64,000 bases of DNA. It comes from Amia ocellicauda. Its lineage: Eukaryota; Chordata; Actinopteri; Amiiformes; Amiidae. The notes under the pieces are model-generated. The model made no database searches, had not been told where the DNA came from, and saw only the letters and a list, made by a program, of their open reading frames with translations. Below, piece after piece: positions 15-54,570 of the stretch. The DNA lies in NCBI RefSeq assembly GCF_036373705.1, contig NC_089851.1:620001-684000 (forward strand). The letters are read 5' to 3'. Both the position numbers and the translations under genes were made by a program. How positions within the stretch are numbered: the first letter of the stretch is position 1; each line of letters begins with the position of its first letter.

Positions 15-175
15 CTGCAGAAGCAGTGCAGACAGTCCCGGAGCAGGACCCCCTCCCCGGGCTGCAGCTCCAGGTAGCAGATGCGACACTCCACGCTCTC
101 CCGGTTCGGTACCAGGTCCTGCTCGTCCGTCTGGACCAGACGCTCAAAGTTCTGCTTCCTCTCTGCATCCTGGAC
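15..175 (-). CDS. RBCK1/HOIL-1-type exon: start of RBR RING1 (partial gene)
   Basis: On the minus strand a good acceptor (polypyrimidine then cccag) precedes 161 coding bases that end at a gtcagg donor. The exon is entered in phase 0 and left in phase 2. It reads [20 protein letters not shown], continues through LVPN, and then gives the first half of a C3HC4 RING: C-R-I-C, followed by the block [11 protein letters not shown]. This is the linker and RING1 start typical of RBCK1 (HOIL-1), the RBR E3 subunit of the linear ubiquitin assembly complex. The rest of the RBR would lie left of base 1. No UBL or NZF exon belonging to a separate RBCK1 gene is visible between here and SHARPIN. It is therefore either the 3' part of a composite SHARPIN/HOIL gene or a fragment of a neighbouring paralogue. 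The family call is firm; the gene it belongs to is not. Confidence 0.72.
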
Positions 176-299
176 CTGGGAGGACAGACGGAGGGTCAAA
201 GGTCATTGGTATTATTGTTATATGTTCATTATTAATTTCTGTTATCATTACTTTTTTTTTTCCCCTAGTTTTTCTGAGGAACCACTTGCATAAAACCCT
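176..299. other. Intronic spacer
   Basis: Short non-coding stretch between the RING exon and the satellite. It carries the polypyrimidine tract of the exon's acceptor on the minus strand and a T-rich run near 250. No other feature is seen. Confidence 0.5.
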
Positions 300-3200
300 T
301 TAGTGTGAAAATACTGCACTGCACTACACTGTACTGTATTATACTACACTGTACTGTATTATACTTCACTGCACAACACTGTACTGTATTATACTGCATT
401 GCATTGTACTGTATTATACTGCATTACATTGTACTGTATTATACTGCACTACACTGTACTGTATTATACTGCATTACATTGTACTGTATTATACTGCACT
501 ACTGTATGATACTTCACTGCACTACATTGTACTGAATTATACTGCACTACACTGTGCTGTATTATACTGCACTGCACTACATTGTACTGTATTATACTGC
601 ACTGCACTACTGTATTATACTGCATTACATTGTACTGTATTATACTGCACTACACTACTGTATTATACTGCATTACATTGTACTGTATTATACTGCACTA
701 CACTGTACTGTATTATACTGCACTACATTGTACTGTATTATACTGCACTACTGTATTATACTTCACTGCACTACATTGTACTGAATTATACTGCACTACA
801 CTGTACTGTATTATACTGCACTGCACTACATAGTACTGTATTATACTGCACTGCACTACTGTATTATACTGCATTACATTGTACTGTATTATACTGCACT
901 ACACTACTGTATTATACTGCATTACATTGTACTGTATTATACTGCACTACATTGTACTGTATTATACTGCACTACACTGTACTGTATTATACTGCACTAC
1001 ACTGTACTGTATTATAATGCACTACTGTATTATACTTCACTGCACTACATTGTACTGTATTATACTGCACTGCACTACATTGTACTGTATTATACTGCAG
1101 TACACTGTACTGTATTATACTGCATTACTGTATTATACTTCACTGCACTCCATTGTACTGTATTATACTTCACTACACTGTACTGTATTATACTGCACTA
1201 CATTGTACTGTATTATACTGCACTGCACTACACTGTACTGTTATACTGCACTACACTGTACTGTATTATACTGCACTACACTGTACTGTATTATACTGCA
1301 CTGCACTACATTGTACTGTATTATACTGTACTACACTGTACTGTATTATACTGCATTACTGTATTATACTTCACTGCACTACACTGTACTGTGTTATACT
1401 GCACAACATTGTACTGTATTATACTGCACTACACTGTACTGTATTATACTGCACTGCACTACACTGTACTGTATTATACTGCACTGCACTGTACTGTATT
1501 ATACTGCACTGCACTACATTGTACTGTATTATACTTCACTGCACTACACTGTACTGTATTATACTGCACTGCGCTACATTGTACTGTATTATACTGCACT
1601 ACATTGTACTGTATTATACTACACTGTACTGTATTATACTGCACAACACTGTACTGTATTATACTGCATTGCATTGTACTGTATTATACTGCATTACATT
1701 GTACTGTATTATACTGCACTACACTGTACTGTATTATACTGCATTACATTGTACTGTATTATACTGCACTACTGTATTATACTTCACTGCACTACATTGT
1801 ACTGAATTATACTGCACTACACTGTGCTGTATTATACTGCACTGCACTACATTGTACTGTATTATACTGCACTGCACTACTGTATTATACTGCATTACAT
1901 TGTACTGTATTATACTGCACTACACTACTGTATTATACTGCATTACATTGTACTGTATTATACTGCACTACATTGTACTGTATTATACTGCACTACATTG
2001 TACTGTATTATACTGCACTACTGTATTATACTTCACTGCACTACATTGTACTGTATTATACTGCACTGCACTACATTGTACTGTATTATACTGCAGTACA
2101 CTGTACTGTATTATACTGCATTACTGTATTATACTTCACTACACTGTACTGTATTATACTGCATTACATTGTACTGTATTATACTGCACTGCACTACACT
2201 GTACTGTTATACTGCACTACACTACTGTATTATACTGCACTACACTGTACTGTATTATACTGCACTACACTGTACTGTATTATACTGCACTACATTGTAC
2301 TGTATTATACTGCACTACTGTATTATACTTCACTGCACTACATTGTACTGTATTATACTGCACTGCACTACATTGTACTGTATTATACTGCACTACACTA
2401 CTGTATTATACTGCATTACATTGTACTGTATTATACTGCACTACATTGTACTGTATTATACTGCACTACTGTATTATACTTCACTGCACTACATTGTACT
2501 GTATTATACTGCACTGCACTACATTGTACTGTATTATACTGCAGTACACTGTACTGTATTATACTGCATTACTGTATTATACTTCACTGCACTCCATTGT
2601 ACTGTATTATACTTCACTACACTGTACTGTATTATACTGCATTACATTGTACTGTATTATACTGCACTACACTACTGTATTATACTGCACTACACTGTAC
2701 TGTATTATACTGCACTACACTGTACTGTATTATACTGCACTACACTGTGCTGTATTATACTGCACTGCACTACATTGTACTGTATTATACTGTACTACAC
2801 TGTACTGTATTATACTGCATTACTGTATTATACTTCACTGCACTACACTGTACTGTGTTATACTGCACAACATTGTACTGTATTATACTGCACTACACTG
2901 TACTGTATTATACTGCACTGCACTACACTGTACTGTATTATACTGCACTGCACTGTACTGTATTATACTGCACTGCACTACACTGTACAGTATTATACTT
3001 CACTGCACTACACTGTACTGTATTATACTGCACTACATTGTACTGTATTATACTGCACTACATTGTACTGTATTATACTGCACTGCACTGCACTACACTG
3101 TACTGTATTATACTTCACTGCACTACACTGTACTGTATTATACTGCATTACATTGTACTGTATTATACTTCACTGCACTACACTGTACTGTATTATACTG

Positions 3201-5471
3201 CATTACATTGTACTGTATTATACTGCACTACACTGTACTGTATTATACTGCACTACACTACTGTATTATACTGCACTACATTGTACTGTATTATACTGCA
3301 CTGCACTACACTGTACTGTATTATACTGCACTACACTATACTGTATTATACTGCACTACATTGTACTGTATTATACTGCACTACACTGTACTGTATTATA
3401 CTGCACTACACTGTACTGTATTATACTGCACTACTGTATTATACTTCACTGCACTACACTGTACTGTATTATACTGCACCGCACTACACTGTACTGTTAT
3501 ACTGCACTACATTGTACTGTATTATACTGCACTACACTACTGTATTATACTGCATTACATTGTACAGTATTATACTGCACTACATTGTACTGTATTATAC
3601 TGCACTGCACTACACTGTACTGTTATACTGCACTACTGTATTATACTTCACTGCACTACACTGTACTGTATTATACTGCACTGCACTACACTGTACTGTA
3701 TTATACTGCATTACATTGTACTGTATTATACTGCACTACACTGTACTGTATTATACTGCACTGCACTACACTGTACTGTATTATACTGCACTACACTGTA
3801 CTGTATTATACTGCACTGCACTACACTGTACTGTATTATACTGCACTGCACTACACTGTACTGTTATACTGCACTACATTGTACTGTATTATACTGCACT
3901 ACTGTATTATACTTCACTGCACTACACTGTACTGTATTATACTGCACTGCACTACACTGTACTGTTATACTGCACTACATTGTACTGTATTATACTGCAC
4001 TACATTGTACTGTATTATACTGCACTACACTGTACTGTATTATACTGCACTACATTGTACTGTATTATACTGCACTACATTGTACTGTATTATACTGCAC
4101 TGCACTACATTGTACTGTATTATATTTCACTGCAATACACTGTACTGTATTATACTGCACTACACTGTACTGTATTATACTGCACTACATTGTACTGTAT
4201 TATACTGCACTGCACTACACTGTACTGTATTATACTGCATTACACTGTACTGTATTATACTGCACTACATTGTACTGTATTATACTGTACTACACTGTAC
4301 TGTATTATACTGCATTACTGTATTATACTTCACTGCACTACACTGTACTGTATTATACTGCACTACACTGTACTGTATTATACTGCACTGCACTACACTG
4401 TACTGTTATACTGCACTACATTGTACTGTATTATACTGCACTACTGTATTATACTGCACTGCACTACACTGTACTGTATTATACTGCATTACATTGTACT
4501 GTATTATACTGCACTACACTGTACTGTATTATACTGCATTACATTGTACTGTATTATACTGCATTACTGTATTATACTTCACTGCACTACACTGTACTGT
4601 ATTATACTGCACTACATTGTACTGTATTATACTTCACTGCACTACACTGTACTGTATTATACTGCACTGCACTACACTGTACTGTATTATACTGCATTAC
4701 ATTGTACTGTATTATACTGCACTACACTGTACTGTATTATACTGCACTGCACTACACTGTACTGTTATACGACACTACATTGTACTGTATTATACTGCAC
4801 TACTGTATTATACTTCACTGCACTACACTGTACTGTATTATACTGCATTACACTGTACTGTATTATACTTCACTGCACTAGACTGTACTGTTATACTGCA
4901 CTACATTGTACTGTATTATACTGCACTACATTGTACTGTATTATACTGCACTACATTGTACTGTATTATACTGCATTACTGTATTATACTTCACTGCACT
5001 ACACTGTACTGTATTATACTGCACTACTGTATTATACTTCACTGCACTACACTGTACTGTATTATACTGCACTACTGTATTATACTGCACTACACTGTAC
5101 TGTATTATACTGCACTACTGTATTATACTGCACTACACTGTACTGTATTATACTTCACTGCACTACACTGTACTGTATTATACTGCACTACTGTATTATA
5201 CTTCACTACACTGTACTGTATTATACTGCATTACATTGTACTGTATTATACTGCACTACACTGTACTGTATTATACTGCATTACATTGTACTGTATTATA
5301 CTGCACTACACTGTACTGTATTATACTGCACTACTGTATTATACTGCACTACACTGTACTGTATTATAATGCACTACTGTATTATACTTCACTGCACTAC
5401 ATTGTACTGTATTATACTGCACTACTGTATTATACTGCACTACACTACATTGTACTGTATTATACTGCACC
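300..5471. repeat. 5.2 kb pentamer-built satellite (ACTGY/ATTAT/ACTRC)
   Basis: About 5.2 kb of variants of one unit, tactgtattatactgcacta plus cactg. The units are mostly 25 or 30 bases and are themselves made of 5-base words (ACTGT, ATTAT, ACTGC, ACTAC, ACATT). Occasional slips, for example atactgcattactgtatt, shift the register. Stops are rare on the plus strand, so spurious reading frames of more than 1000 codons appear; they are not genes. Larger blocks recur, for example 360-800 resembles 1640-2080, showing higher-order duplication. The array separates the RBR exon from SHARPIN. Confidence 0.95.
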
Positions 5472-5690
5472 TGTGGGTGGGAAGGCAGGAGGCGAGCGGG
5501 GGCTCAGTTTGTCTTGGCTGTGGTCACTATTAGTACGTGTGTAGAGGGACCCTGTGCGGAGGCTCAGTGGGGCTCGAGAGGAGCTGGGTTTTTGTTTGGG
5601 CTCCCGTCTGTCTGTTTCTGTTTGCGGACTCTATAATAAACACTGTTTCTCTCTAAATGCGTCTGATTGTATCCTGAGCCCCCACTATAC
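5472..5690. other. Unassigned stretch between satellite and Tc1 element
   Basis: About 220 GC-rich bases with an AATAAA near 5634. It could be the end of an LTR or another retroelement, but no paired copy or coding sequence is visible in the window, so no assignment is made. Confidence 0.2.
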
Positions 5691-6870
5691 AGCTCTGGAA
5701 AAAATTAAGAGACCACTTAACATGATTTCTGAACTTGGAGTGGCCTCTTAATTTTTTCCAGAGCTGTATATACAAATATACAGTTATCTTCCAAGAGACA
5801 GCAAAATCATTAGGTGTGGCCAAATCAACTGTTTGGTACATTCTTAAAAAGAAAGAACGCATTTTGAGCTCAGGAACCCCCAAGAAAACCCCCTTCACAA
5901 CAGTTGGCCAGATCAAGAACACCCTCCAGGAGGTAGGTGTATCTGTGTCAAAGTCAACAATGAAGAGAAGAGTTCACCAGAGTAAATACAGAGGGTTTAC
6001 CACAAGATGGAAACAGGAAGGCCAGATTAGAGTTTGCCAAAAAACATCTAAAGAACCCTATACAGTTCTGAACAACATCCTATGGACAGATGAGACAAAG
6101 ATCAACTTGTACCACAATGATGGGAAGAGACGAGTATGGAGAAGGGAAGGAATTGCTCATGATCTGAAGCACACCACCTTATCTGTGAAGCATATTATGG
6201 CATGGGCATGTATGGCTGACAAGGGAACTGGTTCCTTTGTATTTATTGATGATGTGACTGCAGACAAAAGCAGCAGGATGAATGCTGAAGTGTTTAGGGC
6301 TATGTTATCTGCTCAGATTCAGCCAAATGCTGAAAACTCACTGGACATGTCGCTTCACAGTGCAGATGGACAATGACCTGAAGCATACTGCGAAAGCAAC
6401 CCAAGGCTTTTTTAAGGTGAAGAAGTGGAATGTTCTGCAATGGCCATGTCAATCACCTGACCTGAATCCAACTGAGCAGCATTTCACTTGCTGAAGACAA
6501 AACTGAAGGCAAAACACCCCAAGAACCAGCAGGAACTAAAGACAGCTGCAGTACAGGCCTGGCAGAGCAACACCAGGGAAGAAACCCGGCATCTGCTGAT
6601 GACAAGTATTGAAACTCACAATTTAATTCATGATTATGTTAGTTTGTCCAATTAATTTTGAGCCCCTAACACTGGGGGGAGCACATATAAAAACCATTCA
6701 CCCAATTTGGATGTAACTACCCTCAAGTTAAAGATGAAAGTCTGCACTTAAAGCACATCTTGATTGTTTCCTTTCAAATCCATTGTGGCGTAGTGACAAA
6801 ATGATCACAATTGTGTCACTGTCCACATATTTATGGGCCTAACTGTATATATAAATTGATACAATGGAAA
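5691..6870 (+). mobile_element. Tc1/mariner-type element, degenerate
   Basis: It begins with a TA-flanked terminal sequence, tacagctctggaaaaaatta, that is repeated in inverted form only about 30 bases later (ending about 5769). The transposase remnant follows. The right part carries the 3' sequence cacatatttatgggcctaac and ends near 6850-6870 before tatata. The double end at the left suggests a rearranged element or a small hairpin derivative joined to a longer copy. The transposase is broken, so the element is not autonomous. It lies downstream of the SHARPIN polyadenylation signals. Confidence 0.8.
5766..6612 (+). pseudogene. Tc1-like transposase remnant
   Basis: The main frame (to 6376) has an HTH-like N-terminal region (AKSLGVAKSTVWYILKKKER) and the first DDE aspartate in ILWTDETKINLYHNDGKRRV. 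The frame shifts near 6360, and the next frame carries the second aspartate ([11 protein letters not shown]) and the block [13 protein letters not shown] with the third acidic residue. It then stops early at 6492; remnants of the tail follow. Typical Tc1 transposases are about 340 residues. The frameshift and premature stop make this a pseudogene. Confidence 0.85.
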
Positions 6871-6935
6871 TGACCCCCCTCTGTATCTGGGATAGGCAAG
6901 AAAACACTAAATAAAGCAGAGCTTTAAAATAAGTC

Positions 6936-6995
6936 TTTATTTCTAAACAATATTTTAGATTATTTATTTTTACAGTAAAATACAACACGTTTATT
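6936..6995 (-). promoter_or_regulatory. Probable SHARPIN polyadenylation signals
   Basis: Three AATAAA hexamers on the minus strand (TTTATT on plus at 6936-6941, 6963-6968 and 6990-6995) lie about 620-680 bases beyond the SHARPIN stop codon in an A/T-rich setting. They support the 7.6 kb exon being a true 3'-terminal exon. Which signal is used cannot be told from sequence. Confidence 0.5.
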
Positions 6996-7613
6996 CCCCC
7001 CCCCCGACAATGCATTTTGAAAGGTTAGAGGACGAGACAGAGAAACCCCTCCCTCACGCAGCAGGGGCAGACGGGGCTCTGGAGTCAGAGGGATGGCGGG
7101 GGTGCCGTGTTACTCTGGGGGCTGGGGCTGCACTACAATGCCCAGCGAGGGACACAGACCAGAAGGAAGAGACGGGGGCAGGGAGTCGGAGGGACCGAGG
7201 GCAGGGCACGCTTTCCATTGAAGGTGAGGGCCAAAGCATTCGAAACATTTGATACACCCCCCACCACACCACCCCCACCACACCACCCCACAACAAGACA
7301 ACACGTATAACAACCAGATCAGATCAAACAAAAAGCCAGAAACAAAAGTCAAACTTTAAATATGATTATGAACACAGTGGGGGGGACTGCAGTGCTGCAG
7401 TAGGGGGTCAGTGCATTTGCCTTGTGTGTGTTTATCTATGGGAGTATCAGTGTGTGTGAGAGAATGCACACCTGAATCAGTACATGTATCAGTGTATCAG
7501 TGAGTGTATGTCAGTGTGTGTGAGAATGTGCACCTGAATCAGTACATGTAACAGAGTGTTAAACTGTACCAGTCAGTGCGTCTCAGTGTGTGTGTGCGCA
7601 TCAGGGTGTGCAG

Positions 7614-10600
7614 TCAGTAGTCCGGGTTCGAGGGCAAGTTGAGATTGTGCAGCAGGGCGTTGTCCTGCTCTCTGGCGCCCCCCAGTGTGTCGTCTCGTCT
7701 CCCCTTCTCCTTAAACACAGAGAGAGAGGACAGGTCAGGTTAGCTCAGGGGTTCCCAAACTGGGGGGCCCCAGGACCCTCTATGGGGGGGCGCAGGTAAA
7801 GCGCTGAACGGGTAAAAAGTGAAGATGAGACATGAAATCCACGAGGGGTCTGACAACTGTTTATTGCCGCCCCGCCGGAATCGTGCTGGATAAACGGATT
7901 CCTTTTGCATCGACCCGGCTCTGTGAAATGACTTTTTCCACATTTACACACATCAAAAACAAACTACGGTCGCGACTCACGAGAGTGGAAATCGGGTCTC
8001 GGTTATTGGCTTAATCCATATCTAGTCATGGCCTATCAGAAGGGAGGACTGTCGTGTAGCACCGCCTGTGAGCCACTTATTGGCAGTTTCAGACCAAATA
8101 TCTGCAATATTTCGGAAACGGCAATAACAAAAAATAAAATCGATGAGTTTGCACAGTTAAACATCAACGCAGATGAGGCAGACAGAGAAAAGACGCCCTG
8201 GAAGTTCGTCTAACTCCAGTGAGCTCCACTAGATAGTGAGCAAAGGTTCATGCACGGAGATTCCAATGTTAATGGCCAAAGACTGAAAAGTAAAATGCAA
8301 ACGGGTATTAAAGTGTACTCCTCTTTGTTAAATGTTAGGGCTTTCAAAATTATGATTGGAAATATAAATATGAACGGGTGAGACGTGGGGGGGGTTATGG
8401 GCGTGAGCTGTGACCCAAATGGATGGGGGGGTGCCAGCCAAAAGAGTTTGGGAACCTCTGGGTTAGCTACAGGGGGTGCCAGCCACACCCACCCACCCAC
8501 TGTCCCCTCTTTGGCTCCGTCTATTCCTCAGAAAGAGAGAGAGCGTGAGAGAGCGCGACAGGAAGGGAGAGCGAGGTTGTGCTCTGCCTGGCGCCAGTCC
8601 ATCTCTGCCCTGTTCCCGTGTGCGTCTTTCTGCCTCGGTCTGTCCAGCTGTGCTGCGTCTGCTCCCTGTGTCCAGTACAGTACAGTACAGCAGGGTCTAT
8701 CGGCCCCCCCATCCCGCTACCTGTCCCTCGGTGCATTTTCAACAGCACCCCCCCATCTGACGCACTGCCTGCCCTACAGTCAGTGTCTGTGTCCGTCAGT
8801 GTGGGTGGAAACAGCAGCTGAGCCAGTCAGCAGCTACCAGTTCTCCCATCAGCCCTCACAGCTGCCTGTCTGTGGTTCTGAAAGCATGAGCCAGTGTGTC
8901 AGTGTCCCTGTGCCACATGCATGTCTCTCTGTGCCACGAGCGTGTGTGTCCGTGCCACGTGCGTGTCTCTCTCTGTGCCACGAACGTGCGTGTCCCTGTG
9001 CCACGTCTCTCTGTGCCACAAGCATGAGTGTCCCTGTACCACGTGTCTCTCTGTGCCACGAGCGTGCGTCTCTCTCTCTGTGCCACGAGCGTGCGTCTCT
9101 CTCTCTGTGTGTGCCACAAGCGTGCGTCTCTCTCTCTGTGCCACGAGCGTGCGTCTCTCTCTCTCTCTCTCTCTGTGCCACAAGCGTGCGTCTCTCTCTC
9201 TGTGTGTGCCACGAGCGTGCGTCTCTCTCTCTGTGCCACGAGCGTGCGTCTCTCTCTCTCTCTCTGTGCCACGAGCGTGCGCTCTCTCTGTGCCACGAGC
9301 GTGCGTCTCTCTCTCTGTGCCACGAGCGTGCGTCTCTCTCTCTGTGCCACGAGCGTGCGTCTCTCTCTCTCTCTCTCTGTGCCACAAGCGTGCGTCTCTC
9401 TCTCTGTGTGTGCCACGAGCGTGCGTCTCTCTCTCTGTGCCACGAGCGTGCGTCTCTCTCTCTCTCTCTGTGCCACGAGCGTGCGTCTCTCTCTCTGTGC
9501 CACGAGCGTGCGTCTCTCTCTCTCTGTGCCACGAGCGTGCGTCTCTCTCTCTCTCTCTGTGCCACGAGCGTGCGTGTCCCTGTACCGCATGCGTCTCTCT
9601 CCCTGTGCCACGAGCGTGCGTGTCCCTGTGCCGTGTGCGTGTGTATGTGTGCGCGTGCGTGCAATAACTGAGTGAGTGTGTGCATACAGCGACTGTGTGT
9701 GTGTTTATGCGTTCAATAACTGAGAGTGTGTGTGAGTGTGTATTTTAACAGTGTGGGTGTGGCCTACCTGCTGGTACTGCCTCACAGCCTCCTTCTCCTG
9801 CTGCAAACGCCGCAGCTCGTCCGGGTCGGGACGGTACCCCCCCGGCACCGTGTAGCTCAGGGGTCGGGCGGCACTGCAAATCTCACAGCCCGGCCGGGTG
9901 GGCTTGTTGATGAAGGTACAGGACGGGCAAGACCAGCCAGCCTGGAGGAGGGAGGAGAGAGAGGGGGATTAACACACACACCAAGGCTGCAGTGTCTGTC
10001 AGCACCCCCGTGTGTTCGCTGGCCTGACATCCGGAGTGTCTGGGTCGGTACTGTTGTGCTGGTTCTTGCAGGAGGCAGTATGTCAGTGTGCATCTGCTGG
10101 CATGTTGTCGGCAGGGTCAGTGAATAATTGTGTGTTTGCTGGCGTGTGGTGGGCGGTGTCAGTGTGTGTTCGCCAGGCGTGTTGTGGGAGGTGTCAGTGT
10201 GCCAGGGGTACCTGCAGGTGGGCTGGCGTTGGGTTGGCTGTGTTAAGGCTCAGTGCCTCATTCAGCTGCAGCATCTCCAGGTTGATCAGGTCTCGGATGT
10301 CACCGACGCCGAGGCGCTCTGCCCCGCCCCCTCCGCCTGCTGGACCAATCACAGATCACACAGAGCCATCAGCAGCCAATCAGAGACCTCCCCTGCCCTG
10401 CCCCACTCCCTGACACCAATACGGACCTCGGGATGGACAGGGCAGGACGGACAGAGGGACTAATTGAGCCGAGCGGGACGGTTGGTGCCATGTACCTGTC
10501 GAGTGGGGGAGCCGGGCAGGCAGGGTGCTGTAGCCTCGCCAGTCCTGTGGGGGCAGCCCGTTGCTGGGGGGGACGGGGCCGGCCTGCAGTAGGGCGCTCT

Positions 10601-11410
10601 CCTGGTCCCGCTGGCACAGCTGGGGAGACAGGCGGGCCTGGCGCGCGGACAGCAGGTACAGGAAGGCCGTGTCTCCGTGGCCCCGCACCCCGTAGGAGGC
10701 TAGCGAACGCGGGTCCGAGCACAGGCACTGCCCGATCACCCAGCGCTGCACTCGGGGGTGAAACCCGTAGTCCAGGAACACCTGAGAGGGAGGGAGGGAG
10801 AGAGAGAGAGAGCAGGAAGAAGGAGAGCGACTGGTGAGCTGCTGCAGTGTATACACACACCTGAGAGAGGGACACAGAGCAGACAATAATGATTCACACA
10901 CACAGTCACAGGCACCCAGACAGACAGCTGGAGGACAGATAGAGACGGGCGGCAGTCTGACCTGCTGCTTCAGGGAGGCGATGGTCATGTGGGGGAAGAC
11001 TTTCACTGTGACACAACAGGACGAGGAGGCATCTTCCACCGCCACCTTCAGACTGACAGAGAGAAAGACCATGAACACACTCCTCTGCCACACTCCCTCC
11101 TTCACACTGACAGAGCACACTCCTCCTTTACCATCCACACACTGACCCCTGCAGAGCTCTCTCCCCTTCTCTCTCTCCCTCCTTTTCCTCCCCTCTCCCT
11201 CTTCCCTCACTCACTTGATCTCGGTGTCCAGGTAGCTGTCCTGCCGGGGCTGTATGCTGAGCACCACCTGCTGGCGAGCGAGAGTCAGAGCGCACCGAGA
11301 GGCTGCCTGGGCGTCCCCGGCCTCGATCGCATGTGCCAGCTCTGTGCACAGCTCCTCTGTGGGGGAGGAAGAGGGAGATCAGTGGTGGTGCTACGCAAGA
11401 TGATCAAACT

Positions 11411-11497
<87 letters not shown>

Positions 11498-12989
11498 ACT
11501 GACCTGTGCGTGGCAGCATGGCAGACGCTGTGGGTTCGAGGGGCTCCAGCTGGAGCTGCCTATCATCTGGGGGCTGACAGCAGCCGTCTGCAACTGAGAG
11601 AGGGACAGAGGAGTGCCATTAATCAGAGAGCCAACTTCTGACAGGGACACACACGAGAGAGAGACAGTGAGAGAGACGGTGGGACACACATTAATCTGAG
11701 AGCCTACTTCTGACAGACGTACAGTGAGACACAGGGACCCAGGGATCCACATGGGACACACGCACCTCTCTGCGCCTCTCTCAGGGAGGAGGTGATCACA
11801 GTGGCCCACTCCTGCGCCTCGCGCTCGTCCCGGAAGTTGAAGGTGATGCGGTCGTGCGGGGGGGTGGCCAGGCTGAGCTCGTGGCAGCGCTGTGACCTCA
11901 CCTCGTAGCGCACGTCACGCAAGTCAAACTCCACGATGGACTGAGCAAGGGAGAGAGGAGAGAAACAGGGAGTTAGAGCAGAGGAGAGGAGAGAGGAAGA
12001 GTTCACCCTCCTCCTTCCCCTGATGGAATTTTGGTCTGACACTCACAGTGTGTTAAACAGACACTGTGACACACTATTGCACACACTGTCTCACTCTCTC
12101 TGATGTGATCAGCTCAGCAGGCTTTAACCAGACACGCTGGTAGATGAACACAGACACCCGTCTCCTCTCCGCGCAGCGGGGCAGCATCACTACCCGCCCC
12201 CTGCTGCTGTTCACAGCGCCGCTGTGCTGACAAACTGACTAGTCAGAATGAGCTGCGTAGCGAAAGTACGCGTGCGCAGTGAACACGCCCATAAATCTGC
12301 TGGTAATAATTATGAACATTTAGAATGATTTTGACCGTGTTATTTTATAGTGACCAATTTGCTATTTACGCATAGATGACAGGATGAGCTGCATAGGGTC
12401 TGAACGCTTCTAATACAGTAATAGTGTTGAAAAACGGAAGCCCATTGTGACGGGTCCCTTCTGTCCGACAGATGAGCTGCCCCGGATTTGAAGTGTTAAA
12501 ATACAGTAACAGTGCTGAGAAACAGCTGGTAGCGCATTCAGACGGTGCTTTATGTGAGACAGGATGAGCTGCTTAGTATTTTCAGCGGGGCAGCCCATTG
12601 TTTTCAGACACCGGGCAGCCCATCCTGATCGGGAAGCGCAGTGTCAGAACACCGGCACCGGTATTTACGTATTTACTCCCGGTTTATTTCTATTCCTGAG
12701 GCCCCCGGCGACCTACCACGCTTCTGCCCGCGGCCGCCGAGGAGCTGGCGTCCCGCAGAGCCAAGCGGAATTCCCCGGCCCGGCCCGGGTCCATGCTGAG
12801 CTGCAGGCGGAGCGACTCGTCCCCGGCGCCGGGCAGGCAGAGAGGCCGGATGCCGGAGTGGCACACCGACACTCTCACCGACATGAGCACGGTGCTGCAG
12901 CCGCCTTGAGGCGCTCCCGGCCCGGGCAGGGGGGGCGAGGGAGTCCGGGGCGGCGGGGTGTGCGCCCAGCCGCCCGAGCTCAGCGCCAT
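7614..12989 (-). CDS. SHARPIN: SHARPIN, LUBAC accessory subunit (9 coding exons)
   Basis: Exons on the minus strand: 12989-12717, 11940-11766, 11587-11504, 11356-11215, 11052-10962, 10781-10496, 10339-10212, 9941-9768, 7709-7614. Every junction has GT-AG ends and matching phase. The product is about 482 residues (human SHARPIN 387). An N-terminal PH-like domain includes [14 protein letters not shown]. The LUBAC-tethering motif at about 178-222 contains [19 protein letters not shown]. The UBL at about 225-305 includes [20 protein letters not shown]. An NZF at about 395-425 has W-S-C-P-S-C-T-F and G-C-E-I-C. SHARPIN binds HOIP and ubiquitin and supports linear ubiquitination in NF-kB and cell-death signalling. 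The LTM and UBL sequences favour SHARPIN over RBCK1, while the NZF tail ending RQYQQ is strikingly RBCK1-like. The last exon adds 31 residues ending LPSNPDY; I do not recognise this tail. The start is the first ATG in a CpG-rich first exon. Confidence 0.9.
7746..8460 (-). mobile_element. hAT-type element with 8-bp target duplication
   Basis: A 715-base element bounded by the inverted ends caggggttcccaaact and agtttgggaacctctg. It is flanked by perfect 8-bp direct repeats, ggttagct, at 7738-7745 and 8461-8468, the target-site length of hAT transposons. Inside, near 7870-8010 on plus, a remnant reads [20 protein letters not shown]. It resembles the hAT C-terminal dimerisation region of ZBED5-like transposases, so the coding sense may be plus. 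It sits in the last SHARPIN intron, ending 36 bases before the final acceptor. It is non-autonomous. Confidence 0.85.
8885..9660. repeat. Minisatellite in SHARPIN intron 8
   Basis: About 25 copies of gtgccacgagcgtgcgtctc followed by a variable CT run, giving a unit of roughly 27-40 bases. Long reading frames on both strands rich in SLCHERA or RERDARSW are products of the repeat. The plus strand is strongly pyrimidine-rich between the conserved cores. Confidence 0.93.
11414..11497. repeat. (GA)n microsatellite
   Basis: About 84 bases of uninterrupted GA dinucleotide in the SHARPIN intron between exons 3 and 4. On the transcribed strand it is (CT)n close upstream of exon 4. Confidence 0.95.
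12247..12620. repeat. Degenerate tandem motif in SHARPIN intron 1
   Basis: The motif (g)atgagctgc recurs near 12247, 12383, 12471 and 12562. The last three are about 90 bases apart and share flanking phrases (tacagtaa, agcccattg). It is a diverged short tandem duplication; function unknown. Confidence 0.5.
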
Positions 12990-18879: not shown

Positions 18880-19630
18880 AGAGATGGTGTGCAGCCAAAA
18901 CCTAGGAGAGTTGAGACCTTAGAGCAGGACAGTGTAGAGAACTGCTGGGTTACAGTAGGTCGTAACCGCAGAAAAGGGTGTGCACAACCCCTAGAGACAC
19001 CCCAAGAGCTTGAATTGCCCAACAGGTTCCAAATGCTGGACACCGAGTTGGACAGTGACAGCTCAGAGGGTGATGGGAGGGCAGTTGAGCACCAGAGCAC
19101 TGTGGTGCCCACTCCCCCCCAGAAGAAGTAGGTAGTTATAGTAGGAGACTCAATTCTTAGAGGTGTAGATCACACAGTGTGTTCTAGTGACAAGGAGACC
19201 CGCATGGTATCTTGCCTGCCTGGTGCTCAGGTTGCAGATCTCCCTAAACTAGTAGACGGGCTACTGGCCAAAGCCGGGAGTAATCCACTGGTCATGGTCC
19301 ACATTGGAACCAATGACATAGGAAAAGGTAGGACAGAGGTTCTGCAAGAAAAATTTAAAGAGTTAGGAACAAAACTAAAGAGCAGAACCTCCACGGTAGT
19401 TTTCTCTGAAATAATTCCGGTACCACGTGCCACGGGCCAGGGAGACAGGCAGAGATTAGAAAGTTTAACACGTGGTTGAAATCCTGGTGTAGGAAAGAGG
19501 GTTTTAGGTTTATGGAGCATTGGTCTTTCTTCTGGGATAGATGGGACCTGTACAGACTGGACGGTCTACATCTAAACAGAAGGGGGCTAATGCATTGGGA
19601 GAGCGTATGTGCAGTGAAATTGAGAATCAT
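18880..19630 (+). pseudogene. CR1 ORF1 remnant with SGNH/GDSL esterase-like domain
   Basis: Two frame pieces: ETLEQDSVENCWVTVGRNRR up to a stop near 19130, then VVIVGDSILRGVDHTVCSSD and VMVHIGTNDIGKGRTEVLQ. GDS and GTND are blocks I and III of the SGNH hydrolase fold that some CR1-clade ORF1 proteins carry. The frame is lost by 19480, with remnants to about 19630. Confidence 0.7.
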
Positions 19631-19728
19631 TTAAACTAGGAATCAGGGGGGCAGGGAGCTCTGACAATGGGAGATGTTCCTCTAAGGAAAGAAAACCAAG
19701 GGAAACTGCCAGTAGGAAAGTCCTGAAA

Positions 19729-22370
19729 TGTTTGTACCTCAATGCCAGGAGTATAAGGAACAAGATGTTAGACTTAGAAGCCACAGTGCTGGCGAGTGAC
19801 TATGATGTTGTAGGAGTGACAGAAACATGGCTTACAGAAAATGATGGGGATGAATACAAGTTGGAAGGAAACACACAGTTTAGGAGAGACAGGCAACATC
19901 GAAGAGGGGGTGGGGTAGCATTATATGTGAAAAATGACATTGAGGCAGAAGAACTAAAATTAGATCCCAGTAACGGAACAGAATCTTTGTGGGTGAAACT
20001 TTTGAACAAGAGATCTGGAGGATTAGTGGTAGGAGTGTTACAGGCCACCAAACTCACATATTCAGAAAGATGCTGCATTGTACAGTGTAATCAGGACTGC
20101 ATGTAGCAAGGATGTGGCTGTTATAATGGGGGATTTCAATTTCCCAAACATTGACTGGGAAAGCCCAGTGGGGACGACAGAGGCAGAAATAGAAATGGTT
20201 GAGATAGTAAATGACTGCTTTCTAACTCAATTTGTCAGGGAACCAACCAGAGAGAGTGCATGTATTGACTTGATCTTTTCAAATGACCAAGATAGAGTCA
20301 GGGGGACACTAGTTAGAGAACCAATGGCAAACTGTGATCACAATATGGTTAGCTTTGAGGCATTCTTTCAAAAAACAAGGTCCAAGTCTAAAACAATGGT
20401 CTACAATTTTAGAAAAGCAAACCTTGAAGGTATGAGACAGCACTTAGAAGAGGTAGACTGGAGCACACTGGATACAGAGTCAGTTGAAAATGGATGGGTA
20501 TATTTTAAGAATATACTACTTGAGGCTCAGGAGCAATTTGTACCAAAACTTAGCAAATTGAGGAACAAAAAACATTGGCCAAAATGGTTTAATAGAGGTA
20601 TGCAAAAAAATATCAAGAGGAAGAAAATGTTGTATAGGGCATACAAAACGGATGGAGACAAAACAAAATACATAGAATATGTTGAGCTGCAAAGAGATCT
20701 TAAGAAAGGGATCAGGAAAGCAAAGAGGGAAATAGAAAGAAACATAGCTCTTGGAGCTAAAACTAATGCAAAGAGCTTTTTTCAATATTACAACAGCAAG
20801 CGGTCAATAAAGGAGGAAGTAAAACAGATAAAGTGCAAAAATGGAGGTATCTTGGAAAACGAATAAGATGTGGCAAATGTTCTAAATGAGTATTTCACAG
20901 AGGTTTTTACAAAAGAAAAGACAGATAACATGCCACAGGTTAACTATCAGTCCAGTCAAACCCTAAGAGAGATCAGGATAAATGAGGAGGAGGTACTAAA
21001 GGGACTAGCAGAATTAAAAACAAACAAATCACCTGGGCCAGATGGGATATTTCCAACAGTACTTAAAGAAATGAGGGAAATTATTTATAGGCCACTAACT
21101 CAATTATTCCAAATGACACTTAGAACAGGGGATGTGCCGACTGACTGGAAGACAGCAAATGTCATACCAATCCACAAGAAAGGGGACAAAACTGAGCCAG
21201 GAAATTACAGACCAATCAGTTTCACCTGCATCACCTGTGAAATGTTGGAGAAAATGATTAGACAGAAAATAGAGGAGCATCTTAATGAAAACCATATTCT
21301 TGGAGATAAACATGGGTTTAGACGAGGCAGATCATGTCTTTTTTGAACATGCAACTGCAGCTGTAGATCATGTGAAAGCAAATGATATGATATACTTAGA
21401 TTTCCAAAAAGCTTTTGATAAGGTTCCACACCAAAGACTGATCCTCAGATTGGAAGCTGTAGGCATTCAGGGTAATGTAAGTAGATGGATTATGAACTGG
21501 TTGATGTCTAGGAAACAGAGGGTGTCGTTTAGAGGAGTCGGTTCTAACTGGAGTGAGGTTGTTAGTGGAGATCCACAGGGATCAGTACTAGGGCCTGTGC
21601 TTTTTCTAATCTATATTCATGATCTGGACTCTGGGATAGTTAGCAAACTTGTCAAATGTGCAGATGATACTAAAATAGGTGGCTCAGCAGATACCATCTC
21701 GGCAGCACAGGCTATTCAAAGGGACTTAGATAATATTCAGTTGTGGGCCGAAACCTGGTAGATGAAATTCAATGTGGACAAGTGCAAGGAAATACATGCA
21801 GGTAACAGAAATGTCCACTATAATTACACTATGGGAGGAATAGAACTAGATGAAGTAATGCATGAGAAAGACCTAGGAGTCTATGTGGACTCCTCACTTT
21901 CTCCATCCAAACAATGTGGGAAACAATAAAAAAGGCAAACACAATGCTAGTGTATATTGTCAAAAGTGTAGAATTGAGAACAAGGGCAGTGATGTTCAGA
22001 CTGTACAATGCACTAGTTAGAGCTCATCTGGATACTGTGGACAGTTCTGGGCTCCACACTTCAAGAAAGATATCGCTGCTCTAGAGGCAGTTCAGAGGAG
22101 ACCAACCAGACTTATTCCAGGTCTGAAGGGAATGTCCTACTGAGAGACTGAGGAACTGAACCTTTTCACGCTGGAACAGAGGGGACTACGTGGGGACTTG
22201 ATCCAAGTCTTCAAAATCATGAAAGGCATTGACCACGTCAAACCAGAGGAGCTTTTCCAGATCAGCAGGGACACACACACCCGGGGACACAAATGGAAAT
22301 TGGGCTTCAAGGCATTCAAAACAGAAAACAGGAGACACTTCTTCACACAGAGAGGCGTCACAATCTGAAC
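19729..22370 (+). pseudogene. CR1 ORF2 (endonuclease and reverse transcriptase) remnant
   Basis: The APE-type endonuclease begins KCLYLNARSIRNKMLDLEAT, followed by VGVTETWLTENDGDEY. Next is VIMGDFNFPNIDW near 20120 after a frameshift. Reverse transcriptase blocks: [76 protein letters not shown], and a catalytic block reading KCADDTKIGG instead of the usual FADD. The last block is [17 protein letters not shown]. Breaks occur near 20050, 20865, 21345, 21760 and 21925. The aspartate pair of the active site is retained. Confidence 0.85.
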
Positions 22371-24785: not shown

Positions 24786-27700
24786 TTAGTAGGGCGAGTA
24801 GTGGGCGAGGTGGGGCAGCTGTGCATGGGCGGGGGGCTGCTCGGGGTGGCCCATGGCGTCGAACACGCTCTTGTTGGGGGGCACAGACTGCAGTAGGGAG
24901 TCCAGGTCCACGAGGAGTGGCGACGGCTGCAGGGACACCCCCCCCCGGGGCAGCAGGGGCCAGTAGGCAGGGCTGAAGAAGGCCGGGGGGCCAGAGTGGG
25001 GCGGGGGGGGCCCGGCGGGGGGACCACGGAAGCTATAGAAGGGCAGCCCCCCCAGCGGCAGGAAGGAGCCCCCCCCGCTGAAACACATGCTGGGAGGGGC
25101 CACGGCATTGGGGGGGGCGAACTTGGTGTAGGAGGTGGGCAGCTCCCAGGGCGCGGGGGGGGGCCTGCGTGACTTGTGGAGGGGCCTGCCATCCTCATAC
25201 CCCCCCCCACCCCCCTCCTCAGAGTCCGAGCTGGCCTCCCCCCCCTCCAGTTGGCGCTTCCCAGGACGGGCCCCCCGGCAGTCGTCCTCTGAGGACGAGG
25301 AGGAGGGTGGGCTGGTGGAGCTGGCTGAGGTGCTGTGGGCGGAGGAGGAGTAACGCGGCCGGGGGGGGGGCGGCGCCGCGGGGGGGGCCCTCCCAGTCGC
25401 CACGGCACACGGCTCCCAGCCCCCTCCAGGCGGCCCAGGCTCCCCCGCGGCACTGGCGGGGTGCAGGCTGTGCAGCAGGGCGTCAATGGCAAAGGGTGAG
25501 TCCAACCGGGGCCGGTACAGCTCCCCGGGGGGAGGCGGTGGAGGGGGTACCACAGCGGGGGGGGGCACGGGGCCAGCAGGGGGGGCGCCCTGCAGGATAT
25601 AGGGCGCCAGGTCATGGGCAAACAGCGCCTCCTCCTGGCGGGACACGGCCGTGTTCTGGCGCTTCAGCAGGTCCAGCGGCACGCGGCCCACGTCCACCGC
25701 CCAAAAGTTGCCCTTGCCCTGCGGCTTCCCCGGGTCCTTGAGCACCTGCAGGGGGAGAGAGGGAGAGGCGGTGAGTGGCTGCCACACACCGGGGTCCACC
25801 GAAGGACACCCCTCCTCCTGAGACAGACACAGAGACCACGACAAGGCGCAGGACCCCCCTCACCTTGACGAAGCAGTCATAGGACGAGAGGTTGTGGCGC
25901 ACAGAGTCCCGCCAGCCCTTATAGTTGCCCTTGAAGAACGGGAACAGCGTGCTGATCTCCTTCAGGATCTGAGATGAACAGGGGGGGTAAATGATGTAAA
26001 TTAGAACGAGGTTGGCAAAGCTTTTACAGAACAGGAACACATTCAAACACAAAGCAGCTGTCAGACACACAGTTTGCAGTGGAATCTGGCGGAGGGACCG
26101 GGCGACTCAGCTCTGTACGGGTTTGTCAATGTTCTCTATAAATGCATTGCAAGGTATCAACCACATCAAACCAGAGGAGCTTTTCCAGATCAGCAGGGAC
26201 ACACGCACCCGGGGACACAAATGGAAATTGGGCTTCAAGGCATTCGAGACAGAAAACAGGAGACACTTCTTCACACAGAGAGGCGTCACAATCTGAACAA
26301 ACTCACCAGCGATGTGGCTGAAGAGACAATTTGGGAACATTCAAAAACAGACTGGATAGGATCCTTGATCACTTAGTTATTAATGGACACCAAACGAGCA
26401 TGATGTGGTGGATGGGCTCCTCTCATTTGTAAACTTGTAATGCCTGTGCATTATCCAAGGGCTCCCCCACTGGTGATTTCAATCCAGGATCAGAGCGCAT
26501 CTTTAGGACTATCTCAGGACACAGATTTATTTGTTCTCTCCCATTTCACTTTAAAGTTGTATGGCTATTGATTTTAAATGTAAATGCACATTGTAATATG
26601 GTGTCATTGTTGTACTGCATCTGAAAGGCACTATAAATAAAGGGCATTATCAGGACCTTTCATTTTTTGGGGGGAGGAGGTGTATATGTGTGTGTGTGTG
26701 TGGGGGGGGGCCTTCACCAAAACCTCAACTGAACTGATAATTTGCGTAATTTGACTTCTTCAAATTGTTCATCTGACAAACAGGATGAGAACTCAAGTGC
26801 CGAATATCATCTCGTACATCCCCTCCCCCCCCGTTTAAAATCATGTCAATCCCCCGCTGAGCTGCAGCGCCAGCAGCAGGACAGTTGGAGAGACACGGCT
26901 TTAGTCCCTGGACTCAGAATCACCCCCCCCCTCTCCGGACAGTCCTCTCAACCTGCTTCTCGGAGCTCAGTCGCCGCCGGAACCAAACTGACGACGTTCA
27001 TTAGTTTACAAGCCAAACAATCACTAAAGTTTGAACAACGGAACGCTTGCGTTAAACTTTTTGGCAGATGTTTGAGCACATTAAAATCACATTTCGGATT
27101 GATCCTTAAACTGATCCCTGAGGACAGAGCGGCACAGGAGAATGGTTTTTTTTTTAGATTCCTGTTGCAAAAGCACTGGTTTAAACTGACTGCAACAGAG
27201 CGATCACACTCCCACAGCTTGGGCAACCTGTTGGCACCATGGTGCCCTTTATTTCCCTTCCTTTCATCTCCAGATGTGTTCATATGAGGGAGCCCAACTT
27301 AATCAAATGCAGCCGATATACCGAGAAAGTAAGTAATAATTGCCAAAGCACAAGAGTGTCATAGCGTCATAGTTCGAGTTAATTGTGTTCATTTTGTAGA
27401 TCCGACAGAAACAAAGCCCAGTCCAACAGCACCCACTGGGCGGGCGGCGAGATGGCTCGCAGGAATAAAGTGAACGTTGTGGCCGGCCTGCGACACCTTC
27501 CACCGGCGGCTGGACCCAGACGCACCGGGCTGCAGGAGCCTCGCCGGGGTTAAGGACTATGCGCCCGGAGCCGCTCTCCATGCGCGACAGTGCCGAGACT
27601 GAACCGGCTCAGCAAGCGCAACAGCTATAGTAATACACAATAGCCGACACCATGGGCTCCCCAATCCCTCCACACCGCGATTCCCCTGGCACTGTCCCCG

Positions 27701-52760: not shown

Positions 52761-53307
52761 GACTGTGTTTTACTGTAGTTTACTGTAGTTCAGTGACATA
52801 CCTCGGATGCAGACCGCTGACAAACCGGAAGTAGCGCAGCTGAGTTTCTGCTCTTCTTGATCACTGGATTGTTATTGTCTGATACTCTACAGTTATTGTG
52901 CCCAGTTGTGAGAAACACATCAAAAACATAAAGAGAGTAGAGCACGACTGGGCTGCCTCTGCTCAGGTATTTTGTTTTCCAGCTCATTTTAATAGGCTTC
53001 TAAATCTGCCAGATGTCCTTCTTATTGCTGGAAGCAGCGAGATTCCTTCTTCAGCCCAGAGGTTTCCTCTGAACACGTGCTGTAAATCAGCAGCCACAAC
53101 CAGGAGAAAAGGAAAGAACAGAAAACAACAATAAAACAAATAAACTAAGACATCTGGACCTACTGTGGAGACCCTGCCAGTCCAGGGCCTTCCAGGGGGG
53201 TTTCCACTGAACTGCTCTTGTTCTCCAAAACAGGGGTCTGCTGCACTGGAGGGGAGACACCCTGTCTTTACTCTGTGAGAGTGTGAGTGACTGTGTGAGT
53301 GAGAGCC

Positions 53308-54570
53308 ATGCTGCAGGCGGGCTCTGTGCAGCTCCTGTGCCTGACGGCCAGCAGTGGAGTGCCCCTGTTCTGCCGCGGTGCGTCCCGCCAGCTGCCCTTC
53401 TCCGTGATCGGCTCCCTGAATGGCGTGCACATGTTTGGCGGGGGCCAGGGGGCCGCGCTGGCAAGCTGTGTGACGGAGCGCGGCGGCCGTGTGGCATGGC
53501 AGGTCTTCCAGGACAGTGTGACGCTCATCGCCGTGAGCGCCGAGGAGAGCAGCGACGCCTCCAGTGAGCTGCAGCTGCGCCGCCTGCTGGAAAACACTTG
53601 GAACTGCATGGTGCTGCTGCTGGGGCTGGATGAGCTGGCCACCGTGAGGAACGTGGAGCGGCTGAAGAGGGACCTGCGCTCCTGCTACCAGCTCATCGAT
53701 GCCTTCTTGGAGGGCCCGGCCGAGGGGCTTGGGGACCTGACGCATTGCGCTGACTGCCTGGCACCTACGCATCCCGACCTGCTGCAGGAGGCGCTGGACT
53801 CCTTCTCCCGTGCCGCTGACAGCGAGTTCGGCTGCCTGCTGGTTCACGGCAGCGTCGCGGCCGCCACGGAGAAGTGGTGGCGTCTGGCTCCGCAGGAGGT
53901 GGTGCTGCTGTCGGCCCTGGTGCGCACCCTGGGCGGTGCATCCTCCTGCGACCACCCCGTTTTCCTGCCCCAGGGAAGCCCCACCGTGCCCCACCGCCTA
54001 CTCTGCTTCCAGCTGCTGCCGGGGGTGCAGGTGTGCGTGCTGTGCGGCCCCAGCCCCTCGCTGCAGAGAGCGGAGGGTGAGCTGGTGGTGCGCTTCTGGG
54101 CCCCCGTGGCGGAGGCCCTGCGGGGCTGCCTTGCCCTGCGGCAGCGTGGCCTGCCCGGCTCCGTGCCACTGCGGCGCGGCATCCTGGGGCTGCTGCTGGT
54201 GAACCGCGAGTCCCGCCGTGCACTCTCCTCCGTGCACCTGTGGCCCGACGCCCCTCCGGACGCCCCCTGCCCCCTGCGCCGCTGGCAGCTGCTGCGGCTC
54301 TTCTACGTGCTGGCTGCCACACGCTACTTCCCCCCCGAGGAGGTGCAGAGCGAGCGGCGGCACGGAGAGGTCCTGGATGAAGACTTCGCCGCCGGCTTCC
54401 CCCACCAGCCCCTGCAGTGCTACCTGGCCACAGACGAGTGCAAGTGCTTCGGCCTGCAGACCCCCCAGCACCAGCTCTACTTGCTGACCTCCGCCAGCCT
54501 GCCCACCTTCGCCCTGCGGCCCCTCGCCACCCACACCCTGGCCACCCTGCTCGGCCACGCCGGAGTTTGA
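53308..54570 (+). CDS. FUZ: FUZ (fuzzy), CPLANE planar polarity effector; uninterrupted ORF
   Basis: A single open frame of 420 codons (human FUZ 418 residues) with no coding intron. It reads LLCLTASSGVPLFCRG, then QLPFSVIGSLNGVHMFGGGQ, GLDELATVRNVERLKRDLRS, SPTVPHRLLCFQLLPGVQV, and ends LRPLATHTLATLLGHAGV. Colinearity with the human protein covers the whole length, including the three longin-like modules. FUZ works with Inturned and Wdpcp in the CPLANE complex at the ciliary base, supporting ciliogenesis and Hedgehog signalling. The ATG at 53308 is chosen because it places LQAGSVQLLCL in the family N-terminal position; no other in-frame ATG lies upstream. The coding sequence is very GC-rich. 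The missing introns suggest retroposition or intron loss; no decay is seen, so it looks functional. Confidence 0.95.
   Translation: MLQAGSVQLLCLTASSGVPLFCRGASRQLPFSVIGSLNGVHMFGGGQGAALASCVTERGGRVAWQVFQDSVTLIAVSAEESSDASSELQLRRLLENTWNCMVLLLGLDELATVRNVERLKRDLRSCYQLIDAFLEGPAEGLGDLTHCADCLAPTHPDLLQEALDSFSRAADSEFGCLLVHGSVAAATEKWWRLAPQEVVLLSALVRTLGGASSCDHPVFLPQGSPTVPHRLLCFQLLPGVQVCVLCGPSPSLQRAEGELVVRFWAPVAEALRGCLALRQRGLPGSVPLRRGILGLLLVNRESRRALSSVHLWPDAPPDAPCPLRRWQLLRLFYVLAATRYFPPEEVQSERRHGEVLDEDFAAGFPHQPLQCYLATDECKCFGLQTPQHQLYLLTSASLPTFALRPLATHTLATLLGHAGV

Follow-up and report, generated by a model that had tools for sequence, protein, structure and literature searches.

Organization of the predicted SHARPIN-RBR gene

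The question raised by this locus is whether the exon that encodes the NZF zinc finger of a SHARPIN gene is continued by a RING1 exon of the HOIL-1 type and, if it is, what kind of gene the two halves make up. In one review (PMC9084887), SHARPIN is described as having PH, UBL and NZF domains only, and homologous motifs and UBLs of HOIL-1L and SHARPIN are described by Fujita et al. (PMC6044281). According to the analysis presented here, the locus is very probably a fish SHARPIN orthologue which still carries the RING1-IBR-RING2 (RBR) module that mammalian SHARPIN is without.

The window, i.e. the whole stretch of 64,000 nucleotides that was analysed, corresponds to C2:620001-684000 of the 988 Mb genome of Amia ocellicauda. 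The gene is on the minus strand, as are all the exons given below. Its 14 exons are predicted ones, with the boundaries picked for frame and consensus. When joined, the exons form one open frame that is 712 codons long with the stop counted, GT-AG was present in 13 of the 13 introns, and the domain order in the predicted protein was PH-like, LTM (LUBAC-tethering motif), UBL, NZF and RBR. A protein of this composition had been proposed in an earlier, sequence-only reading of the window, and the open frame agrees with it, the junction of exons 8 and 9 being a predicted one.

The first and second parts of the PH-like domain are encoded by exon 1 (12717..12989, including the ATG) and exon 2 (11766..11940), both of which matched the SHARPIN structure 4emo and the Sharpin_PH family. 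Exon 3 (11504..11593) encodes a linker and has phase 1 to 1 with GT-AG. The phases of exon 4 with the LTM (11215..11356), exons 5 and 6 with the first and second parts of the UBL (10962..11052 and 10496..10781), and exon 7 with the linker before the NZF (10212..10339) were identical to those of RBCK1 exons 2, 3, 4 and 5, respectively; the acceptor of exon 7 has a one-CAG ambiguity. Exon 8 (9768..9941; 174 bp), which encodes the NZF and the RQYQQ linker, is in phase 0 at both ends and terminates with RQYQQ followed by gtaggc. Exon 9 (15..175; 161 bp), which encodes the start of RING1, has the acceptor cccag, opens in phase 0 and runs into a HOIL-1-type RING1. The lengths of exons 8 and 9 equal those of RBCK1 exons 6 and 7. 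Both exons had been pointed out earlier and were recovered at exactly the same positions, on the same strand and in phase 0 at the proposed junction, exon 8 with the same RQYQQ end, and with clean splice acceptors and donors.

It had also been suggested that the remaining RBR exons should be looked for to the left of the window. Five more exons, in frame and on the same strand, were located there within 10 kb: exons 10-11 at C2:619728-619839 and C2:619424-619603, and exons 12-14 at C2:619221-619319, C2:618960-619103 and C2:618614-618694. Exons 9-14 together encode the full RING1, IBR and RING2, with the stop after CQNCH. No Met occurs in the RING1 exon (175-15) and stops close its frame on the upstream side, therefore the protein start must be in an upstream exon. 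Exon 8 would be spliced to exon 9 across an intron of 9.6 kb.

Domain matches and the predicted ligase activity

Sharpin_PH (E 1.9e-56), LTM, the RanBP zinc finger and IBR were all detected above the Pfam cut-off on the one protein, and the UBL was identified by PDB comparison. At E 0.01, the N-terminus matched a single PDB entry, 4emo (SHARPIN). The Pfam IBR model matched the RING2 stretch only (residues 640-676). None of the Pfam RING models matched the SHARPIN-locus protein at E 0.001 compared with four on RBCK1, which points to a more divergent RING1 of the former.

The last 258 residues, encoded by exons 9-14, were aligned with human HOIL-1 (8eaz) over residues 5-258 with E 9.3e-115, a value by which the resemblance of the two RBRs is far beyond chance. 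The full-length match to 8eaz includes RING1-IBR-RING2 with the cysteines that are expected of RBR ligases: the human RBR cysteines that were aligned were all kept (25 of 25), as were 31 of 33 when Cys and His were counted together. In RING2, one position (Ala in 8eaz, Cys in 7yuj), which we take to be that of the catalytic cysteine, is occupied by Cys in the SHARPIN-locus protein as well as in fish RBCK1. The long frame and the preservation of all the splice sites argue for selection on the RBR, judged in a single species.

Concerning the probable function, the protein is expected to join HOIP via its UBL and HOIL-1 via its LTM, as mammalian SHARPIN does. The RBR would take ubiquitin from the E2 onto the RING2 cysteine and then pass it on, and ester bonds would most likely be formed, as by HOIL-1.

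In comparison with mammalian SHARPIN (4emo, 5y3t_C, 5x0w_B), the PH-like domain, LTM, UBL and NZF are present in the same order and the UBL is closest to that of SHARPIN, whereas the mammalian protein has no RBR and the fish locus has six more exons with a full one. HOIL-1/RBCK1 (8eaz, 3b08, 5y3t_A) shares the LTM, UBL, NZF and RBR but is without the PH-like domain, which the fish SHARPIN locus has on exons of its own (Sharpin_PH). HOIP/RNF31 (6sc5) is likewise an RBR ligase of the same complex, and 53 of the 189 aligned RBR residues were identical to those of the fish SHARPIN RBR. HOIP is not known to have a SHARPIN-type N-terminus.

A separate RBCK1 with the same exon structure

A complete ordinary RBCK1 was found at C4:40224740-40230813, and it is this gene, not the SHARPIN locus, that is the RBCK1 orthologue. 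The genome-wide search with the LTM gave two matches, the SHARPIN locus and RBCK1 on C4, and the same two places were obtained with the RING1 exon. An independent set of first rbck1 exons feeding the exon at 15-175, which had been named as a finding that would speak against a joint gene, was looked for and none was found. A complete RBR lacking UBL exons of its own, in turn, had been named as support for a joint gene; this is the arrangement that was observed, with the LTM being found only at this locus and in the C4 RBCK1.

The lengths of exons 8-14 were identical to those of RBCK1 exons 6-12 in seven of seven cases (174, 161, 112, 180, 99, 144 and 81), and the phases were identical in all 11 paired exons from the LTM onwards. 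The extra N-terminal PH exons are the difference from fish RBCK1. Because the exon lengths from the NZF and the phases from the LTM match those of RBCK1, the SHARPIN-RBR gene is, as far as gene structure can tell, a whole-gene paralogue of RBCK1 with the RBR kept and not a fusion. Of the earlier proposal of a composite SHARPIN-HOIL-1 gene, the joint SHARPIN/RBR frame thus stands, while the wording does not: since the RBCK1 exon structure is preserved from the LTM to the end, SHARPIN retaining an ancestral RBR is a better description than a composite of two genes. The accompanying idea that such a gene represents the ancestral state, from which SHARPIN later lost its RBR, is supported by the complete RBR and the RBCK1-like exon structure. 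The loss would have occurred later in the mammalian line, possibly through an earlier terminal exon.

The sharing of the RING1 exon by a separate RBCK1 was considered as well and ruled out, RBCK1 being complete on C4 and the LTM having only two matches. Exon 11 of RBCK1 (C4:40230606) apparently has a GC donor (gcaaga) in place of GT.

Intron 8 and the possible short form of SHARPIN

Intron 8 (176..9767, minus strand) is largely composed of satellite, minisatellite and a Tc1-like element. The gap between exon 8 and the exon at 175-15, previously given as 7 kb, is actually 9.6 kb. A terminal-exon candidate, a Tc1-like element and a satellite had been listed as its only contents; all three are there, but minisatellite arrays are present too (8902-9738). 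The satellite consists of 25-bp units, extends over 5.1 kb (window 318-5470) and contains no N; the frames of the Tc1-like element, judged by eye, are at 5726-6655. In accordance with the previous reading, no UBL or NZF exons were placed in the gap by local UBL and NZF queries, nor was an LTM exon by the genome-wide LTM search.

The candidate for an alternative terminal exon (7614..7709, minus strand) has 31 codons and a stop in frame with exon 8. Its acceptor, aag, is pyrimidine-rich, and AATAAA occurs at 6995, 6968 and 6941. The genome search with 7725-7000 resulted in 74 matches, all of which, except the self match, start at query base 108 or beyond and fall in the repeat-like downstream part. 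For the coding part (query 17-112), no further copy was found within the limits of that search. The 31-residue tail matched no Pfam family at E 0.001. On these grounds the exon at 7709-7614 is possibly a genuine alternative end, giving a short SHARPIN without the RBR; the notion that mammals retained a short form of this kind alone is a speculation.

The alternative that survives best is the production of both forms from the fish gene, a long SHARPIN with the RBR and a short one without it, by the use of alternative last exons. The in-frame short exon with its acceptor and AATAAA signals is consistent with it and the long form is backed by the whole gene structure, although the tail of the short form has no Pfam match at the threshold given above. 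We consider it a serious possibility whose chances are somewhat below even.

A different explanation of the same exon is that there are two genes, a short SHARPIN that ends at 7709-7614 and, separate from it, an RBR fragment that is degenerate or has no promoter. The frame, the acceptable acceptor and the AATAAA signals would fit such an end, as would the failure to find a second copy of its coding part and the 5 kb satellite which fills the intron beyond it. However, six open in-frame RBR exons with all their splice sites and all 25 of the aligned cysteines are unexpected in an orphan fragment. In addition, exon 9 is without a Met, its frame is closed upstream, and no LTM, UBL or NZF of its own was found for it. 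The two-gene explanation is therefore regarded as highly improbable.

Phylogenetic relationships and neighbouring genes

In the LTM-UBL tree, the fish protein and mammalian SHARPIN formed one group, fish RBCK1 and mammalian HOIL-1 being on the other side, with an ultrafast bootstrap of 96. The AU p values of the alternative groupings were 0.073 and 0.010, the former of which corresponds to a fish-specific duplication and formally still allows it. The RBR tree rooted on HOIP had a bootstrap of 50 and AU p values of 0.575, 0.543 and 0.232, so that it does not discriminate between the possible orders of duplication.

The RBR of the SHARPIN locus was identical to that of fish RBCK1 at 158 of 254 positions and to that of human HOIL-1 at 157 of 254, and the RBRs of fish RBCK1 and human HOIL-1 were identical to each other at 167 of 254. 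These identities agree with a duplication older than the split of fish and human. For the NZF, 39 of 60 residues were shared with fish RBCK1 and 37 of 60 with human HOIL-1, compared with 36 of 60 shared by the latter pair; no clear signal results from these counts.

The next gene found downstream was GPAA1 (Pfam Gaa1) in convergent orientation, and beyond it there was an RNase-PH gene resembling EXOSC4. In human, GPAA1 and EXOSC4 are presumably located near SHARPIN at 8q24.3, and we take MAF1 to adjoin SHARPIN. The PH domain, the UBL tree and the GPAA1 neighbour together mark the locus, by sequence criteria, as SHARPIN.

Only one MAF1 is known from mammals. Two genome matches of MAF1 were obtained here, C2:587442-587591 and C4:40220697-40220855, about 31 kb from the SHARPIN locus and about 4 kb from RBCK1, respectively. 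RBCK1 on C4 is adjoined by a TRIB-like kinase, MAF1 and a TBC1D20-like gene; the first and the last of these are assumed to be TRIB3 and TBC1D20. The presence of MAF1 near each of SHARPIN and RBCK1 suggests a block duplication, in which SHARPIN and RBCK1 would have arisen together with a MAF1 neighbour before the fish-tetrapod split. TRIB, taken as a further marker of the block, lent it no support: among the 150 of 371 candidates that were scored, its three matches were on C4, C1 and C19, and C2 was without one. Seven matches were obtained with the Hox13 homeodomain query, for which 150 of 159 candidates were scored; the four of them at 85 percent identity or more were on four contigs. The teleost duplication is thus probably absent from this genome.

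These data also bear on a late origin of the composite structure, in which the SHARPIN locus acquired a copy of the RBCK1 RBR by fusion or conversion within the fish lineage. The tree of the RBR by itself permits the grouping with fish RBCK1 (the AU p of 0.543), and in the NZF, too, fish RBCK1 comes closest by a narrow margin. In contrast, the RBR resembles that of fish RBCK1 scarcely more than that of human HOIL-1, and those two are closer to each other. The common exon phases reach upstream through the NZF, UBL and LTM, and MAF1 is near both genes. Late copying is consequently given very little credence, and the retention of an ancestral RBR by fish SHARPIN is preferred.

An assembly error at the satellite, feared already in the sequence-only reading, is the least credible explanation of all. 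The 5.1 kb of satellite do lie exactly between the two halves, but no sign of misassembly was seen: the window and the 10 kb to its left are free of N, the RBR side continues into GPAA1 and the EXOSC4-like gene, which presumably are the neighbours of SHARPIN in human, and each of the two LTM places found has one of the two RING1 exons found, leaving neither gene without its partner half.

Implications for LUBAC and related observations

Retention of the RBR by fish SHARPIN gives SHARPIN a simple origin as a HOIL-1 paralogue that was formerly an enzyme, and it accounts for the presence in mammalian LUBAC of two similar accessory subunits, only one of which is a ligase. Mammals thus seem to have inherited the former enzyme in a shortened form, and fish SHARPIN is predicted to be able to ubiquitinate. 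The results obtained on LUBAC in fish models may not be directly transferable to mammals. A more far-reaching picture, for and against which we see equal chances, is that of a LUBAC with three RBR ligases in this lineage, in which SHARPIN is itself active and forms ester bonds between ubiquitin and its targets; SHARPIN and HOIL-1 would be a pair from the early vertebrate genome duplications, and mammalian SHARPIN would be a ligase without its former catalytic half, perhaps through the fixation of a short isoform still available to fish.

A zebrafish gene bears the name shrprbck1r, 'sharpin and rbck1 related'. Given this name, the same mixture of SHARPIN and RBCK1 has probably been noticed in zebrafish by the database curators. 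No SHARPIN with an RBR was described in the titles and abstract beginnings among the open-licence papers listed, and shrprbck1r had 0 occurrences in the main text of PMC12979160.

Several other features were recorded in the course of the analysis. On the plus strand of the window, an open frame of 423 residues at 53299-54567 contains all three Fuz longin domains and marks a FUZ or MON1/HPS1 relative, and the frames at 19132-21758 resemble, on inspection by eye, a LINE retrotransposon, motifs of the endonuclease and the reverse transcriptase included. A frame with a partial forkhead domain is present on the minus strand at 25615-26106. Outside the window, at C23:18880917-18896465, a pair of ubiquitin-fold matches is repeated three times with a spacing of exactly 7542 bases and identical scores; these copies would represent either a recent array or an assembly repeat.
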